Of a stretch of DNA of 34,982 bases, positions 3-30,372 are shown piece after piece (positions within the stretch are counted from its first letter, which is position 1; each line of letters starts with the position of its first letter). Source of the stretch: Verrucomicrobiota bacterium (lineage in GTDB: Bacteria > Verrucomicrobiota > Verrucomicrobiia > Chthoniobacterales > UBA10450); the NCBI GenBank assembly GCA_003219265.1, contig QHQE01000003.1, positions 1-34,982 on the forward strand, given 5' to 3'. The notes under the pieces are model-generated. The model was given only the letters and a program-made list of their open reading frames with translations, was not told where the DNA came from and ran no database searches. Made by a program: the position numbers and the translations under genes.

Positions 3-215
3 GACGGAATTTATGGTTCGGCCATGGAATTTTCCCTGCGGGCCTATCAGGCGCGCATTGGGCTTCCAGTTACGGGCCAGTTCAATTTGGAAACGCTCGC
101 CGCGCTTGAGTTGTTGCCCGGCGCGCACACGCCGGTCTTCGCTCCACGTCGACGAGTGGTGCGGCCCCGTCCCGAATGGGAACCGCCCGTACGCGGCGAA
201 TGGATTCGGCCGTAG
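3..215 (+). CDS. C-terminal fragment of a peptidoglycan-binding-like (PG_binding_1) protein, truncated at the window start
   Basis: Open frame from base 3; DGIYGSAMEFSLRAYQARIGLPVTGQFNLETLAAL matches the PG_binding_1 pattern (YGxxTxxAVxxFQxxxGLxxTGxxxxxTxxAL). Confidence 0.75.
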   Translation, partial: DGIYGSAMEFSLRAYQARIGLPVTGQFNLETLAALELLPGAHTPVFAPRRRVVRPRPEWEPPVRGEWIRP

Positions 216-228
216 AGATCGATCTTTC

Positions 229-317
229 GGTGGATCGAGCAGTCCCTTGCTCGATGTCAATTTAGGCGGCGAAGCCGCACTTGTTTCAGCATTGCCCGGC
301 GGAGCGGCCGATCCACC
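229..317. repeat. MITE/REP-like element, copy 1, terminal inverted repeats GGTGGATCG/CGATCCACC
   Basis: Starts GGTGGATCGAGCAGTCCCTTGCTCGATGT and ends GAGCGGCCGATCCACC; near-identical ends recur at 29643-29734; internal hairpin ATCGAGCA-GTCCCT-TGCTCGAT. Confidence 0.85.
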
Positions 318-1216
318 TAATGTTTCATTTCTTCGAAGCGGACCGACTGCAATTCGGCGAAAACTGTCCCGATAAAAATTTGCGCTTCGATTCGTAGGAG
401 GATGCGATCGGAGTCGTCAGACACCCAGATGGTGGCGCGCCGGAATTTACGGTGCGGTTCCAATTCAAGATTCTTACCGAGTCGGTGGAGCTGCAAATCG
501 ATTTTGATTGCGTTGTAAATGCCGGCGCGCACCGAGATTTTTTCATGACCAATCACGGTGACAGTGGCAAGATAAGCCGAAGTCGCGGGATAAACGACGA
601 TCCGGTGGACGTTGCCGTCGGCGAGCGGTTGACTGCGCAAATAAAGCAGAGCCGAGTGCAAATCGAATAGATTCGGAAAACTAAACTCACGGGTTTTTGC
701 GCGCTCAGAGCCGGTTCGACCTTCGGTTCTCGCGCGCGTGACGCCCTTGGCGGTGAAAGTGAGATACGTGGTAATCTTTTTTGATCGATAGCTCTCGGTC
801 TGCCTGGTTTCGACTGGGCGCAGCGTTTCCGCATCAGCGAGCGCGCGATAATTCACGTCCAATTTCCATAAGGCGCGGACGAAGCCGGTCGTGCGCCCTG
901 TTGCCTCGAGTTGGAACTGGCTTTCGGACGGTTTTGCAAAATGGACTTCGCCAGTAGCCGCGGTGAATCCAGCCCAGCCAAAATGATAGGTGGCGCGGAT
1001 TGGTCGCAGCTCGGGGAAAGTGCCAGGTGGATCTTTGGTGAGGGTTGACTGCCAGTTTCCCCCCAAAGCTTTCGGGGTGAAGCACGAAGCGAGAAGAAGC
1101 AGGGCGATCCCGGCGGAACGCGCGGGCAAAAACGCGCCGCTGCGCCTCGCAGAGTTGTAGCCGCCGCTCTCCGAGCAGCGCGACGCGCAGGTAAACAACA
1201 CGATCAAAAAAATCAC
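317..1216 (-). CDS. DUF3108 domain-containing protein
   Basis: 299 aa ORF; FxFGWAGFTAATGEVHF and later beta-rich segments resemble the DUF3108 family; lies downstream of bamA/ompH. Start codon uncertain. Confidence 0.7.
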   Translation of the reverse strand: MIFLIVLFTCASRCSESGGYNSARRSGAFLPARSAGIALLLLASCFTPKALGGNWQSTLTKDPPGTFPELRPIRATYHFGWAGFTAATGEVHFAKPSESQFQLEATGRTTGFVRALWKLDVNYRALADAETLRPVETRQTESYRSKKITTYLTFTAKGVTRARTEGRTGSERAKTREFSFPNLFDLHSALLYLRSQPLADGNVHRIVVYPATSAYLATVTVIGHEKISVRAGIYNAIKIDLQLHRLGKNLELEPHRKFRRATIWVSDDSDRILLRIEAQIFIGTVFAELQSVRFEEMKH

Positions 1217-17574: not shown

Positions 17575-19578
17575 ATGAGTGGCTTCTTTGAGGAAGTGCA
17601 GCGACGAAAAGTTTATCGGGTGGCGGCAGCCTACATCATCGCGGCTGGATTTATCATCCAGATCGGCTCGGCCGTTTTCCCGGCGTGGGAATTGCCGAAT
17701 TGGACATTTCGCTTGGTCGTAGTGCTGCTGCTGATCGGGTTTCCGATTTCATTAATCCTGTCCTGGGCCTACGACGTCACGCCCCAGGGAATTCGCGCGA
17801 CCCCGACTCCGTCTGCACCCGGCGCGCACCGGCGACGCAACCTGATTATGCTTATCGCGACCGGCGTCGTAATTTCGGCGGCCGCGGGTTTTTTCCTGTT
17901 GCCGCGCGCCGCCGCACACAAGATCGACAAATCGATTGCGGTTCTGCCTTTTGAAAATCGGAGCGCTGAAAAAGAGAACGCGTTCTTCGCTGACGGGATT
18001 CAGGATGATATTCTCACGAACCTTTCCAAAATCGGTGACCTGAAAGTGATCTCGCGCACATCGGTCATGGCGTATCGCGGGCAAACGCCGAAAGTGCGTG
18101 AAATTGGGAAAACACTCGGCGTCTCGACAATTCTCGAAGGGAGTGTGCAGCGTGTCGGCAACCGTGTCCGGGTCAACGTCCAGCTGATCGACGCGACAAC
18201 CGACGAGCACATTTGGGCGAACGATTACGACCGCGAGTTGACCGACGTTTTCGCCATCCAAACTGATCTCGCACAAAAGATCGCGAGCGAATTGCAGGCG
18301 AAACTTTCGCCGACCGAAAAAGCGATGATGACGCGCAAGCCAACGGAAAACAACGAGGCTTACCTCGCGTTCGTGCAGGCTCACGATCTCTTCACGCGGC
18401 CGGACAAATTCCGCGCGGAAACCGAGAAAGCTGAGCAGCTTTTTGAGCAAGCGACCAAACTTGATCCGAATTTTGCTGGCGCCTTTGCCGGATTAGCCTG
18501 GGTGGAAGATTGGATGTATCACAGCTTCGACCCGACTCCCGCGCGAAAGGAAAAAGCGCGAGCGGCTGCAAACGAAGCGATTCGGTTGCAGCCGGACCTG
18601 CCTGAAGCCCATCTCGCCCTTGGTTTTTATCAGTACTATGGTGAACGCAATTATCAGGGGGCACTGAACGAATTTGCGATTGCGCAGAAAAGTTTGCCGA
18701 ACTGCGCCGATTGTTATATGGCGGTTGGGGCGATTGAGCGCCGCCAAGGCAAATGGGCTGAATCGACCGCCAATTTGGAAAAGGCGGCCGCGCTCAGCCC
18801 AAAGGATGCATTCCTTCTCATAAATCTCGCCGACAATTATCGCGCCAACAGAAATTTCGAAAAGGCGGACAAACTTTACGATCGTGCCATCGAAGCCGCA
18901 CCGAATTCGTTTGGTGCGCGTGCGCAGAAGGCCATGGTTGCTATCGAGCTAAAAGGAGATTTCAGCGTACTGGAAAAAGAGTTGCCGCTAATACCACCGG
19001 GAGTCGACCCGGAAGGTCTGGCTACGCTCGGCCGGGCAAAGGCCTTAATGCTGCAAAGAAAATTTACTGAGGCTCTCGCGGCTGTAAAACAATTGCCCCA
19101 GGATGTTTTTCACGACAGTACCGCTCCGATACCGAAAGGATTTCTCGAGGGAATGCTTTATACCTATTTGAACGATAAACAAAAAGCACACTCTGCTTTC
19201 GAGAGTGCACGCGGCGTTGCAGAGCAATCGCTCCGCGAAAGTCCGGATAGTCCAGACAGCGCCGCAAGGCATGGACTGTTGGGCCAGATTCTTGCCGGAC
19301 TCGGTCAGAAGGAAGCGGCCATCGCGGAGGGCAGACGGGCAGTGGAGCTTTTGCCTGAGTCTCGGGACGCTTTCGATGGACCAAGCGCCACGGTGCTGCT
19401 GGCGCAAATCTACGCGCAGACCGGCGAAGCAGAGCAGGCGTTGCAACTGCTCGATCATTCGCTCAACACGCCGAACGGAATCACCGTTCCAATTCTTAAG
19501 CTCGATCCAGTCTGGGACCCCCTGCGTAATGATCCGCGCTTTCAGGCTTTGGTCGATAAGTACGGGCGCGCAACGTGA
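17575..19578 (+). CDS. Membrane-anchored TolB-like/FlgO-type domain plus TPR protein (paralog 1)
   Basis: QRRKVYRVAAAYIIAAGFIIQ N-terminal TM block; KSIAVLPFENRSAEKENAFFADGIQDDILTNLSKI TolB-like domain; C-terminal TPRs. Confidence 0.88.
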   Translation: MSGFFEEVQRRKVYRVAAAYIIAAGFIIQIGSAVFPAWELPNWTFRLVVVLLLIGFPISLILSWAYDVTPQGIRATPTPSAPGAHRRRNLIMLIATGVVISAAAGFFLLPRAAAHKIDKSIAVLPFENRSAEKENAFFADGIQDDILTNLSKIGDLKVISRTSVMAYRGQTPKVREIGKTLGVSTILEGSVQRVGNRVRVNVQLIDATTDEHIWANDYDRELTDVFAIQTDLAQKIASELQAKLSPTEKAMMTRKPTENNEAYLAFVQAHDLFTRPDKFRAETEKAEQLFEQATKLDPNFAGAFAGLAWVEDWMYHSFDPTPARKEKARAAANEAIRLQPDLPEAHLALGFYQYYGERNYQGALNEFAIAQKSLPNCADCYMAVGAIERRQGKWAESTANLEKAAALSPKDAFLLINLADNYRANRNFEKADKLYDRAIEAAPNSFGARAQKAMVAIELKGDFSVLEKELPLIPPGVDPEGLATLGRAKALMLQRKFTEALAAVKQLPQDVFHDSTAPIPKGFLEGMLYTYLNDKQKAHSAFESARGVAEQSLRESPDSPDSAARHGLLGQILAGLGQKEAAIAEGRRAVELLPESRDAFDGPSATVLLAQIYAQTGEAEQALQLLDHSLNTPNGITVPILKLDPVWDPLRNDPRFQALVDKYGRAT

Positions 19579-21569
19579 ACACGTTTGTTGCCGAGCTGCA
19601 GCGGCGAAAAGTTTATCGGGTGGCGGCGGCCTACATCATCGCGGCTGGATTCATCATCCAGATCGGCTCGGCCGTTTTCCCGGCCTGGGAATTACCAAAC
19701 TGGACCTTCCGTTTGGTGGTCGTGTTTTTGCTGATCGGGTTTCCGATCTCGTTGATTCTGGCCTGGGCCTACGATGTTACCCCGCAAGGGATTCGGGCGA
19801 CGCCTGCGCCAGGAGCGCACCGGCGTCGCAATCTGATTACGCTCATCGCCATTGGCGTCATCGTCTCGGCCGTCGCGGGATTTTTCATCCTGCCGCACGC
19901 CCTGGCGCGCAAGATCGACAAGTCCATCGCCGTGATGCCGTTTGAAAATCTAAGCGAGGACAAAGAGAATGCGCATTTTGCCGACGGAATCCAGGACGAC
20001 ATCCTCACCAACCTCGCAAAAATCGGCGATCTGAAAGTCATCTCGCGTATTTCGGTGATGGCCTACCGTGGCGCGCCGCACGGCGCGCGCGAAGTCGGCA
20101 AGGCGCTCGGCGTTTCCACCATCCTCGAAGGAAGCGTCCGGCGCAGCGGCAATCGCGTCCGCGTCAATGTGCAACTCATCGACGCCGCGAACGACGAACA
20201 TATTTGGGCGAACAATTACGATCGCGATTTGAATGATGTTTTCGCCATTCAGACCGATCTGGCCAAGGAAATCGCTGGCGCGTTACAGGCGAAACTTTCG
20301 CCGAGTGAAAAGGCGCAGATCGAGCGCAAGCCGACGCAGAATGGCGAGGCTTATCTGGCTTTTGTCCAGGCGCATAATCTTGCCTGCGCTTTTGAGGATT
20401 TCGACAAACTGAAACAAGGCGAACAGCTTTACGCGCGCGCAATCGAGCTCGACCCGAAATTCGCGCTCGCCCTCGCGTGGTACTCGCAGTTGGAAAGCTG
20501 GATCCTACACACATTCGAGCGCACGCCGCAACGCCGCGAAAAAGCGCGCACTCTGGCCGAGCGCGCTCTTGAATTGCAGCCCGATTTGCCCGAGGCGCAT
20601 CTGGCCCTGGGATACTCATATTATTACGGCGATAACAACTACGACGCGGCGCTGAAAGAATTCGAAATTGCACAACGCGGATTGCCTAACGAATCGGACG
20701 CGTATCTCGCGATTGGCGCGATCCAGCGCCGGCAGGGCAAATGGGCGGAATCGACCGCCAATATCGAGAAGTCCGCCAGTTTAAATCCGAAAGACAGCTG
20801 GCCGCTGCAGAATCTCGCTGACAATTACCAGGTGCTGCGGAACTTTGATGCGGCCAACAAAACGATCGACCGCGGGCTTAATATGAATCCAAACGGCGTG
20901 GGACTTTGGGAGGCCAAGTCCAAGCTGGCCATCGCTGAGAAAGGCGATTTCAGCGTCGCAGAGAAAGCATTTGCGGCCGCGAAATCGATCCCGATGACCA
21001 ACGAGGAGAAACTTAGGATCGCCGGCGCGCGGGCGGACGTTTTTCTTTTGGAACGGAAATATCAAGAAGGATTGCGCGAAGCCGAAAGTCTGCCGGACGA
21101 TCTCTTCCACGAGTTCCAGCAGCACTTGAGTGGGAAATATTTTCTCATTGGCTTTGCGCGAAAGGCGCTTCAGGACGAAGCCGGCGCGCGAGCCGCCTTC
21201 CTGAAAGCAAAAGACCTCCTCGAAGCGCAACTGAAACAAAGCCCCGATGCGGCGGACATACATATTCAGCTCGCGAAAGTTCTGGCCTATCTCGGAGAAA
21301 AAGATGCCGCGCTGGCCGAAGCGCAGCGCGCCGCCGAATTGCTTCCGGAGAGCAAAGACGCCTTTGGCGGGCCGGAAATCACGGCCGGCGTGGCCGACGT
21401 TTATTGCATCGTGGGCGAAAACGGCCGGGCGATCGAGGTTCTGGATGGTTTGTTGAGTCGGCCGAGCGGTGTGACCGTGCCGCTTCTTAAACTTCGTCCG
21501 GCATGGGACCCGTTGCGAAACGATCCGCGCTTTCAAGCCTTGATCGACAAGTACGGTGCGAAAGTTTAG
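19575..21569 (+). CDS. Membrane-anchored TolB-like/FlgO-type domain plus TPR protein (paralog 2)
   Basis: Same architecture; GTG start overlaps the paralog 1 stop (GTGA). Confidence 0.88.
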   Translation: MNTFVAELQRRKVYRVAAAYIIAAGFIIQIGSAVFPAWELPNWTFRLVVVFLLIGFPISLILAWAYDVTPQGIRATPAPGAHRRRNLITLIAIGVIVSAVAGFFILPHALARKIDKSIAVMPFENLSEDKENAHFADGIQDDILTNLAKIGDLKVISRISVMAYRGAPHGAREVGKALGVSTILEGSVRRSGNRVRVNVQLIDAANDEHIWANNYDRDLNDVFAIQTDLAKEIAGALQAKLSPSEKAQIERKPTQNGEAYLAFVQAHNLACAFEDFDKLKQGEQLYARAIELDPKFALALAWYSQLESWILHTFERTPQRREKARTLAERALELQPDLPEAHLALGYSYYYGDNNYDAALKEFEIAQRGLPNESDAYLAIGAIQRRQGKWAESTANIEKSASLNPKDSWPLQNLADNYQVLRNFDAANKTIDRGLNMNPNGVGLWEAKSKLAIAEKGDFSVAEKAFAAAKSIPMTNEEKLRIAGARADVFLLERKYQEGLREAESLPDDLFHEFQQHLSGKYFLIGFARKALQDEAGARAAFLKAKDLLEAQLKQSPDAADIHIQLAKVLAYLGEKDAALAEAQRAAELLPESKDAFGGPEITAGVADVYCIVGENGRAIEVLDGLLSRPSGVTVPLLKLRPAWDPLRNDPRFQALIDKYGAKV

Positions 21570-26480: not shown

Positions 26481-29165
26481 ATGAGTTCAGAGCGCCGCAA
26501 ACCTTACCCATTCGACCAGATCGAACCCAAATGGCAGGCGATCTGGGATGAACGCTGCGCATTTCATGCGCCCAATCCGGGCGAGACAAATTTCGATCCA
26601 GCCAAACCGAAATTTTACATCCTCGACATGTTTCCCTATCCGAGCGGCGCGGGTTTGCATGTCGGACATCCGGAAGGTTACACCGCCACCGATATCATCG
26701 CGCGTTACAAGCGGATGCGCGGCTTCAGCGTTCTCCATCCGATGGGCTGGGACGCGTTCGGTCTTCCCGCCGAGCAATATGCGATCAAGAGCGGCCAACA
26801 TCCTGCAATCACCACGCGTGAGAATGTGGCCAAATTCAAAGCGCAACTGAAGCGGATCGGTTTCTCTTACGATTGGCAGCGCGAGATCAACACCACCGAT
26901 CCCGCCTATTACAAATGGACGCAGTGGATTTTTCTCCAGCTCTACAACTCGTGGTTCAATCCGAAGACGAACAAAGCGGAACCGATCTCGACGTATCGTG
27001 GCAAAAATCCAGACGGGGTTCGTCTCGCTTACGTGGCCGATGTCCCAGTCAACTGGTGTCCGGAGCTTGGCACTGTTTTGGCCAACGAAGAAGTTGTCGA
27101 TGGAAAAAGCGAGATCGGCGGTTTTCCGGTCGTGCGGCGCCCGATGCGGCAATGGATGCTGCGCATCACCGCCTACGCGGAGCGATTGCTGAACGAGCTC
27201 GAGGGACTCGATTGGCCTGAGGGGATCAAATTGCTCCAGCGCAATTGGATCGGTCGCAGTGAAGGCGCCGAGATCGATTTTACAGTGGCGCAAGTTTCCA
27301 ACTTGCAAACCGAAGAGGATGGCAACTTGGAAAGTTGCCCCACGATCCGCGTGTTCACCACGCGGCCGGACACGCTTTACGGCGCTACTTACATGGTGCT
27401 CGCGCCTGAGCATTCACTTGTCGATCTTATCGTCACAGAGGAACAGTGGCCGGCGGTGCGCGAGTATCGCGAGCGGACTGCGCGCAAGAGCGAGCTGGAG
27501 CGCACAGATCTTGCGAAAGAAAAAACCGGCATTTTTACCGGCGCTTGCGCGATTATTCCGGTCAATCAAGAGCGCATTCCGATTTGGATCGCGGATTATG
27601 TTCTGCTCGGTTACGGCACCGGCGCGATCATGGCCGTGCCCGGGCACGATGAGCGCGATCTGGAATTCGCGAGAAAATTTGATCTTCCGATTCGCGAAGT
27701 TGTCCAACCACCCGGTGGGGAAGATCCAATTGGATTCATCGGCGACGGCATCGCAATTAATTCGCCAATCATCGAAGGTCTCCCGAGCGCGGAGGCGAAG
27801 AGGAAAATCACTTCGTGGCTGGATGAGCGCGGTCTGGGTAGATCGACAATCAACTACAAACTACGCGACTGGCTCTTTTCGCGCCAGCGTTATTGGGGCG
27901 AGCCGTTCCCGGTTGTCTGGGAAGACGGAAAACATCGCGCGCTCGACGAAAGCGAACTACCAGTCGTTCCGCCACCGCTGGATGATTACAAACCGACCGG
28001 CACGGGCGAGCCGCCGCTGGCCAAAGCGAAAGATTGGATCCGCTATTCTGAGAAGGCGACGCGCGAAGCGAACGTGATGCCGCAATGGGCCGGCTCATGT
28101 TGGTACTACTTGAGATTTTGCGATCCGCAGAACGATGAGCGGTTCGTTAGCGAAGAAGCCGAGAAATATTGGATGGGCGGCGCAAATGACGAAGCTCGAA
28201 TGACGAAGGACGAAGGAATGACGAAGCACGAGCCGCCGGGAAATTCGTCATTCGTCATTCGTCATTCGTCATTCAAATCGGCTCCGGGAGGAGTCGATTT
28301 GTACGTCGGCGGAACGGAGCACGCGGTCTTGCATCTTTTGTATGCGCGCTTCTGGCACAAGGCGCTGTTTGATCTTGGTCACTTGTCGAAGCCGGAGCCG
28401 TTTCAGCGATTGGTCAATCAGGGAATCATTCTCGGCGAAGACAATCAGAAGATGTCGAAGTCGCGCGGCAACATCGTCAATCCCGACGACGTAATCGACC
28501 AGTACGGCGCGGATGCCTTTCGTTGTTACGAAATGTTCATGGGTCCACTCGAACAGATGAAGCCGTGGAGCATGCGCGGCGTGGAGGGGGTGGCGCGGTT
28601 TCTTGCGCGCGTTTGGCGCTTGTTCATGAACGAAAATCAGGCGGGCGAGTGGCAGTTGTCCGCCGCGATAAGAGATGTCGATCCAGACAAGGCGCAGCAG
28701 AAAATTGTGCACGCGACGATAAAAAAAGTCACTGAAGACATCGAGTCCCTTTCATTCAACACCGCGATTTCGCAAATGATGATTTTTGTAAATGCGTTCA
28801 CCAACGCCGAAATCATTCCATTGTCTGCGATGCGTACATTTCTTGTTCTGCTCAACCCGTTCGCGCCTCATCTCGCCTCGGAGTTATGGGAGAAGCTTGG
28901 CGCAAAGTTCAGCGACGCCCGCCGCGATATTACTGAGCAATCATGGCCAAGTTACGACGAACGATTGCTCGTCGAAAACGAAGTCGAGATCGTTGTGCAG
29001 GTGAACGGCAAAGTGCGCGACCGGATGCGATTGTCGATCCACGCCACGGAAGCTGAGTTGAAAGCTGCGGCCCTGGCTAGTCCCAAGATCAAAGCGTTGA
29101 TCGCTGGCAAAACCGTCCGCAATGTGATCGTGATTCCCAAAAAGCTAGTCAATGTTGTCGTATGA
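26481..29165 (+). CDS. leuS: Leucyl-tRNA synthetase carrying two repeat-derived peptide insertions
   Basis: [57 protein letters not shown]; insertions described in findings. Confidence 0.97.
27290..27339. repeat. Paired-hairpin element inside leuS
   Basis: GCAAGTT-TCC-AACTTGC (27290-27306) and GGCAACTT-GGA-AAGTTGCC (27321-27339), both perfect stems. Confidence 0.85.
28182..28280. repeat. Inverted heptad repeat element inserted in-frame in leuS
   Basis: Left arm has AATGACGAA at 28185, 28199 and 28217; right arm is (TTCGTCA)x4 at 28244-28271; encodes [30 protein letters not shown]. Confidence 0.93.
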
Positions 29166-29641
29166 AACGTCTGGAGAACGTGTGGAAGGAATTCAAAGAA
29201 TTTACGATCAAAGGTAACGCGGTTGATCTCGCCGTGGGCGTGATTATCGGCGCGGCCTTTGGCGCGATTGTCAGCTCGCTCGTCAAAGACATCATCATGC
29301 CGCCGGTCAGCCTGCTCACCGGCGGGCTCGATTTCTCGAACAAGTTCGTCGTGCTGCGCGCACCGCCGAGCGGAGGAACTTTCCCCACAGCCGCAGACGC
29401 GGTGAAGGCGGGCGCGATCACTTGGAACTACGGCAACTTCATCACGCTGATAATTAATTTCGTGATCGTGGCCTTCGCGGTGTTTCTACTCGTGCGCGGC
29501 ATCAACAAAATGAAGGAGCCGACGCAGACGGCGCCGGTTTCGAAGGAGTGTTCGGCCTGCGCGATGACGATTCCAGTGAAAGCGACGCGTTGCCCGCATT
29601 GCACGACGGATTTGTCCCGACCGTCAGCCACGCAGCCATGA
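29162..29641 (+). CDS. mscL: Large-conductance mechanosensitive channel MscL with C-terminal zinc-ribbon-like tail
   Basis: [38 protein letters not shown]; tail [22 protein letters not shown] overlap with leuS. Confidence 0.95.
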
Positions 29642-29736
29642 AGGTGGATCGAGCAGTCCCTTGCTCGATGTTAAGAATAATGTCGGCGAAGCCGAGACTT
29701 ATTTAGTATCGCCCAACAGAGCGGACGATCCACCTT
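29641..29736. repeat. MITE/REP-like element, copy 2, perfect 11-bp terminal inverted repeats AAGGTGGATCG/CGATCCACCTT
   Basis: Shares its first 29 bp with copy 1 at 229-317 and the GAGCGGNCGATCCACC end. Confidence 0.9.
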
Positions 29737-29814: not shown

Positions 29815-30372
29815 ATGCCGAAGCGCCTTAACCTTATAACCGCAGGAATTGTCGCTTGCCTGGTCGTTGGCTGTGCGACCCAGTCGAGACCGACGGTCGC
29901 CGCGGGGCATCACATGCGAAAAGTTCGCACGACGGCCTATACGCATACCGAAAGAGGTGGTCGTCATAATGCGATCGGGACTTATTTGTCCGGTCGCCAG
30001 GTGATGAGCGCCGCGTCCGATTGGTCGCGCTTTCCGCTGGGGACGCGGTTCCGACTTGTCGATACAAAGGAAGAATACATAATCGACGATTACGGGGCGG
30101 CCCTGGTTGGGACGGAAACGATCGATCTCTACAAGCTAAGCCGCCTGGAGATGCAACGGTGGGGCGTGCGTCACGTGGATATCGATATCTTGCAGTGGGG
30201 CTCGGCGGAGGAGAGTTTGAAGGTACTAGGGCCGCGCGCGAAAAATCGTACCGTGCGGCAGATGATTGCCGAACTTCAGAAGAAAGCTCCTGTCCAATCT
30301 TCAATAGGCGCCGAAGCTTCCAAGTCCGGGCAGGCGTCAGCTCGCAAAGCTGCACTCCGCACTTTGGATTGA
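29815..30372 (+). CDS. Putative lipoprotein with 3D (DPBB-like) domain
   Basis: Lipobox-like LVVGC; VRTTAYTHTERGG...SAASDWSRFPLGTRFRL...YIIDDYG...IDLYKLSRLEMQRWGVRHVDIDIL. Upstream start at 29740 also possible. Confidence 0.7.
   Translation: MPKRLNLITAGIVACLVVGCATQSRPTVAAGHHMRKVRTTAYTHTERGGRHNAIGTYLSGRQVMSAASDWSRFPLGTRFRLVDTKEEYIIDDYGAALVGTETIDLYKLSRLEMQRWGVRHVDIDILQWGSAEESLKVLGPRAKNRTVRQMIAELQKKAPVQSSIGAEASKSGQASARKAALRTLD

Follow-up and report, generated by a model that had tools for sequence, protein, structure and literature searches.

Near the start of the window (i.e. the whole stretch of 34,982 nucleotides analysed here, from a Verrucomicrobiota assembly) a short inverted repeat lies between the ends of two convergent genes, and a second copy follows mscL; the locus thus raises the question of what kind of element this is, and how it comes to lie at gene ends. 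The original prediction envisaged a MITE-like non-autonomous repeat, inserted at 3' gene ends and possibly acting as a bidirectional transcript-end structure. The features concerned, named here according to the reading that we consider very probable, i.e. that the element is a REPIN (an inverted doublet of REP units), are as follows.

229-317, plus strand: REPIN copy 1, entire element, 89 nt (from the sequence, genome-wide blastn and a covariance model)
229-233, plus strand: left REP foot of copy 1, GGTGG, which pairs with CCACC at 313-317
234-255, plus strand: left REP hairpin of copy 1, ATCGAGCA-GTCCCT-TGCTCGAT, with covarying pairs across copies
266-278, plus strand: central hairpin of copy 1, GCGGC-GAA-GCCGC, with covarying pairs across copies
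291-312, minus strand: right REP hairpin of copy 1, inverted with respect to the left REP hairpin
313-317, minus strand: right REP foot of copy 1, CCACC (GGTGG inverted)
213-215, plus strand: TAG stop of the PG_binding_1 gene, 13 bp ahead of copy 1
317-319, minus strand: TAG stop of the DUF3108 gene (317-1216, minus strand; PF11306), the terminal base of copy 1 being the third base of the stop
29643-29734, plus strand: REPIN copy 2, 92 nt, 1 bp after the mscL stop
29162-29641, plus strand: mscL gene (PF01741), bearing copy 2 at its 3' end

The anatomy originally described is borne out throughout: the terminal inverted repeats GGTGGATCG (229-237) and CGATCCACC (309-317) and the perfect 8-bp hairpin formed by ATCGAGCA (234-241) and TGCTCGAT (248-255) are present, the first 29 nt of copy 1 recur exactly (229-257 and 29643-29671), copy 1 begins 13 bp past the PG_binding_1 stop, and its last base falls within the opposing DUF3108 stop, since this minus-strand TAG spans 319-317 and base 317 is therefore its third base. 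Beyond that description, copy 1 also contains the central and right-hand hairpins, and so consists of two inverted foot-plus-hairpin units; the element has no coding content. Elsewhere in the window, two adjacent open reading frames (17575-19578, 667 aa, and 19575-21569, 664 aa) share DNA stretches of 75-85% identity and are a tandem gene duplication.

The element belongs to a dispersed, multi-copy family, its matches being far more numerous than chance would give. A blastn search of the window's own assembly (2.1 Mb in 200 contigs, 84% complete) returned 53 matching pieces, representing about 40 copies, and a covariance model identified at least 52 copies in the same genome, which carries about 50 copies. 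Among 83 genomes of the same family the covariance model found the element in 66, with at least 1,195 matches in total, a figure that is a lower bound although near-palindromic copies may count on both strands. Genera are uneven in this respect, with no copies in seven g3 and five g11 genomes and at least 52 in some of g7, and none of 21 genomes from other families of the same order contained the element. An exact 28-nt pattern occurred in 63 stretches among 84,980 species genomes, 62 of which belong to MAGs bearing the names Verrucomicrobia, Spartobacteria, Chthoniobacterales or Udaeobacter; the remaining match, in a MAG with the label Acidobacteria gp1 (locus L091, QIAB01000121.1), probably lies on a mis-binned contig. 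Phage and plasmid searches gave no match to the element, so that no vehicle was seen, and a search of Rfam with the element returned nothing. Of 39 copies, 37 lie outside predicted genes.

Alignment of copies reveals a common GGTGG foot, a left hairpin (ATCGAGCA-loop-TGCTCGAT), an inner stem in which GATGYTA stands opposite TARCATC and encloses the central hairpin GCGGC-GAA-GCCGC, a right hairpin (ATCG..CGAT) and a terminal CCACC, i.e. two REP units, each a foot with an imperfect palindrome, in inverted orientation, as the alignment and pair counts for 46 copies both indicate. In these 46 copies 95.3% of cells are paired under a four-armed clover, falling to 23-47% in controls with slid partners, and eight pairs have changed on both sides, compared with 3.5 in shuffles, of which none in 500 reached eight; some of these compensatory changes come from few sequences, and perhaps few events. 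As the double-sided changes are located in the left, central and right hairpins and in the inner stem, the clover, and not the long hairpin alone, appears from the aligned sequences to be conserved. When folded as single-stranded DNA, copy 2 gives predicted clover-like minima on both strands (z -3.2 and -3.5); for copy 1 the minus strand does so as well (z -2.0), and the predicted minimum of its plus strand is a long hairpin. A variant of about 120 nt, with some 30 extra nucleotides that hold further hairpins in the left arm (TTGTCCGCCAGTCGGACGGACTCGTCC), is present in several genome copies (L011 2700-2820, L018, L028, L030, L032, L035 and L039). The foot is GGTGG, rather than one bearing the GTAG tetranucleotide, in nearly all copies, and this GTGG head places the element outside the GTAG REP superfamily as defined.

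Genes for Y1_Tnp proteins (PF01797) are frequent in genomes of this family, and one clade of them, hereafter the clade RAYT, is bracketed by the element. A profile built from three members separates a group of 11 genomes scoring 258-329 bits, ten of them with an open frame and one (G088) with a single stop; the window's own genome (G000) follows at 197 bits with a shifted frame, G096 has a decayed gene, and the next match lies at 129 bits. The element stands on both sides of the clade RAYT at nine of 12 loci (in G009, G024, G063, G004, G032, G078, G084, G025 and G000), the remaining loci comprising G067 and G088, with divergent or one-sided repeats, and G093, where no element was detected. The Y1/HUH RAYT gene and an adjoining element thus occur in the same genomes, and each of these has one clade RAYT, the exceptions being a gene fragment in G024 and the pieces of genes that are broken. 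Copies per genome have a median of 40 where there is an intact clade RAYT and 6 in the other genomes (P 0.0002, a test that ignores phylogeny and MAG incompleteness). The clade RAYTs match NCBIfam REP_Tyr_transpos with E values of 1e-17 to 1e-20, under the curated cut-off, and the only relative of solved structure found with their profile is E. coli TnpA-REP (4er8, E 0.0013), with which the HxH motif and the tyrosine align.

G006 and G012 are nearly complete and copy-rich and have no clade RAYT, a state that fits either loss of the RAYT after spread or another mobiliser. A different RAYT clade was considered for the latter role in genomes without the clade RAYT, and was rejected: of 30 RAYT-family loci outside the clade, in 11 element-rich genomes, none has the element nearby. 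At two further loci the element model gives weak matches next to the gene: at L190 in G094 (about 30 bits; 57 and 73 nt) and at L193 in G089, the RAYT of the latter probably being a decayed clade member. Several individual loci deserve mention. The sole clade RAYT of the window's genome (G000:C159:5925-6383, L188 1501-1959) is frame-shifted in its second half, which could be a decayed gene or an assembly error. In G063 (L179 / L079 2669-3292) a cysteine occupies the position of the presumed catalytic tyrosine (VNCIRQNPV compared with NYIRQNPV), in a genome that nevertheless has about 41 element matches. Near the RAYT of G025 (L187 3037-3411) three near-identical variant elements in a row, spaced by 133 bp, are a tandem REPIN cluster, and L182, L185 and L193 contain related repeats with a common GGTGGA foot and other stems (ACGCGTTGTC.., TCGTCTTGTC..), which seem to be sister families of REPs located next to clade RAYTs.

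The arrangement of long, non-GTAG repeats around the clade RAYT gene also recalls TIRtrons, in the sense of PMC3733652, where such long, double-palindromic repeats flanking the gene form a named category. On that reading the transposase would be of the same Y1 kind and would recognise the long terminal repeats, the hairpin of each half-element not being a functional unit. TIRtrons and their TIRYTs (published motif GGGGWSAS; PMC3733652) are alike in that the Y1 transposase is flanked by long, partly self-complementary repeats that are also dispersed; they differ in that here each half of the repeat follows the REP plan of a guide-like foot and a hairpin, the halves being inverted doublets as in REPINs, with hairpins that covary separately. 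We consider the TIRtron reading the less likely one, although on sequence the two categories overlap and their distinction is partly one of naming.

That the window copies are insertions follows from orthologous loci without them. The DUF3108/PG-binding junction measures 12-173 bp and contains no element in the 26 relatives whose convergent partner is readable; in the nearest relatives (G017, G031 and G005) a 40-bp spacer ends in gaagatcgacat or a similar sequence, which matches gaaagatcgatct next to copy 1 and indicates that copy 1 lies directly behind the DUF3108 stop and that about 27 bp of spacer is gone. On the 3' side of mscL, likewise, those relatives in which the next gene is unchanged have no element. 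Two genomes of one genus (G022, G065) have in common a copy behind mscL, flanks included, and G099 carries a different copy at that place, so that copies can be inherited and the mscL gene end has probably been the target of repeated insertion. Behind the DUF3108 stop in G024 (L210) the convergent spacer is 173 bp, against about 40 bp, and contains other insertion-like sequence without the element's ends. The original description of a dispersed non-autonomous repeat is thus upheld by the copy number, the extragenic placement and these empty sites, and the family extends well beyond the two copies in the window.

The further suggestion of insertion at 3' gene ends is likewise supported. Tandem or convergent neighbours could be read for 28 copies, and 11 of these have a stop no more than 4 bp away, where 4.9 would be expected if copies fell at random in those spacers (P 0.0008); in tandem gene pairs six copies adjoin a 3' end and no copy adjoins a 5' end. 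These context statistics derive from the loci that surround copies, with genes called by a simple dicodon method, for which stops are firmer and starts unreliable (the true start of the gene 3' of copy 2, for example, is probably near 29817). The clade RAYT genes, too, mostly terminate at the element: the stop is followed immediately by GGTGG in G009, G024, G067 and G000, a TAG overlaps the element's first G in G004 and G032, and in G078 and G084 the foot is a variant one with a TGA inside it. Part of the excess at stop codons may reflect selection against gene damage. It is also possible, and we propose this only tentatively, that insertion is guided to translation stop codons, with the terminal G completing a TAG or the element directly following TGA, TAA or TAG, and with the RAYT gene ending at or inside the element's edge; if so, this target preference would render insertions harmless and would tie the RAYT frame to its own substrate.

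The same excess at 3' gene ends, with the strong inverted repeat, the covarying pairs and the effects on mRNA ends reported for REPs (PMC3733652), could be taken to indicate a structured RNA or transcript-end signal, i.e. a terminator acting in both directions or a stabiliser of mRNA, which would be retained for this role and be mobile only secondarily. However, there is no T-run at the element's ends, three copies sit between divergent genes, the distribution within genera is patchy, and the element is missing from the same gene junctions in relatives and hence is not required there. Only one marginal terminator-like site was identified (the central hairpin; 0.5 expected), and none at the outer ends. 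The bidirectional transcript-end role originally proposed so far finds little support, an incidental effect on mRNA ends being possible.

Target-site duplications, a check proposed with the original prediction, gave a negative result, with no excess of 2-9 bp duplications over shuffled expectation in 125 copies; the base just outside the element is A in 66% of cases on the left and T in 64% on the right. HUH/Y1 enzymes, as in IS200/IS605, are not expected to generate such duplications. A classical MITE, i.e. an internally deleted relic of a DDE-transposase IS with short terminal inverted repeats and moved by that IS, would account for the inverted repeats, small size, many copies and empty sites, but is very improbable given the absence of duplications, the covarying internal hairpins, an HUH/Y1 enzyme as the sole transposase found between copies, and no full-length DDE element with these ends among the loci examined. 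Of the MITE-like label, then, mobility and non-autonomy stand and the classical MITE does not; with no duplication and an associated HUH/Y1 RAYT, REPIN is the better name.

We therefore return to the REPIN reading, under which the element is very probably recognised, cut and spread in trans by the RAYT of one specific clade. Each REPIN would comprise two inverted REP units (GGTGG foot and hairpin) flanking a spacer with the third hairpin, and in its single-stranded form could adopt either a clover or a single long hairpin; we infer that this single-stranded form is the substrate. The host-encoded RAYT, an HUH/Y1 enzyme, would cut and rejoin one strand, and copies would thereby move to extragenic DNA, often at stop codons and without duplication of the target.

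REPINs were described as doublets of inverted REPs, presumably mobilised by RAYTs, with a clover fold proposed (PMC3116915). The family described here resembles the REPINs and RAYTs of Pseudomonas fluorescens SBW25 (PMC3116915) in its two inverted REPs forming a hairpin or clover, its many extragenic copies, the presence of REPINs beside the RAYT gene and the lack of a self-mobile transposon; it differs in sequence and phylum, in its third, central hairpin, in copies directly at stops, and in numbering tens of copies rather than hundreds. GTAG REPs and REPtrons (PMC3733652) are alike in that foot-plus-hairpin units flank a Y1 transposase and lie behind genes, and one Verrucomicrobium, Opitutus terrae, was reported among their hosts; this mention is the only link between REPs and Verrucomicrobia in the literature searched. 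Here, in contrast, the head is GTGG, the host range is one family of another order-level lineage, and the unit is always an inverted doublet. E. coli TnpA-REP (4er8), whose HxH and tyrosine motifs align with those of the clade RAYT, is distant in sequence and acts on GTAG-headed REPs; one characterised RAYT cut a GTGG-headed substrate, at CC (PMC8266576). Under the guide rule established there for Marinomonas REPs, in which a GTGG foot sets the cleavage site at CC, the present element would be predicted to be cut at a CC step. The REPIN/RAYT kind is thus known, and the literature searched appears to contain no account of this GTGG-headed family from the present Verrucomicrobiota group. The series of empty sites, intact and decayed RAYTs, and relatives with and without copies would allow RAYT loss to be set against REPIN spread, and the clover as a selected form and the preference for stop codons to be tested. 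REPIN/RAYT systems in the literature searched are mostly from Proteobacteria; the present family is a well-delimited one of soil Verrucomicrobiota, with at least about 1,200 copies.
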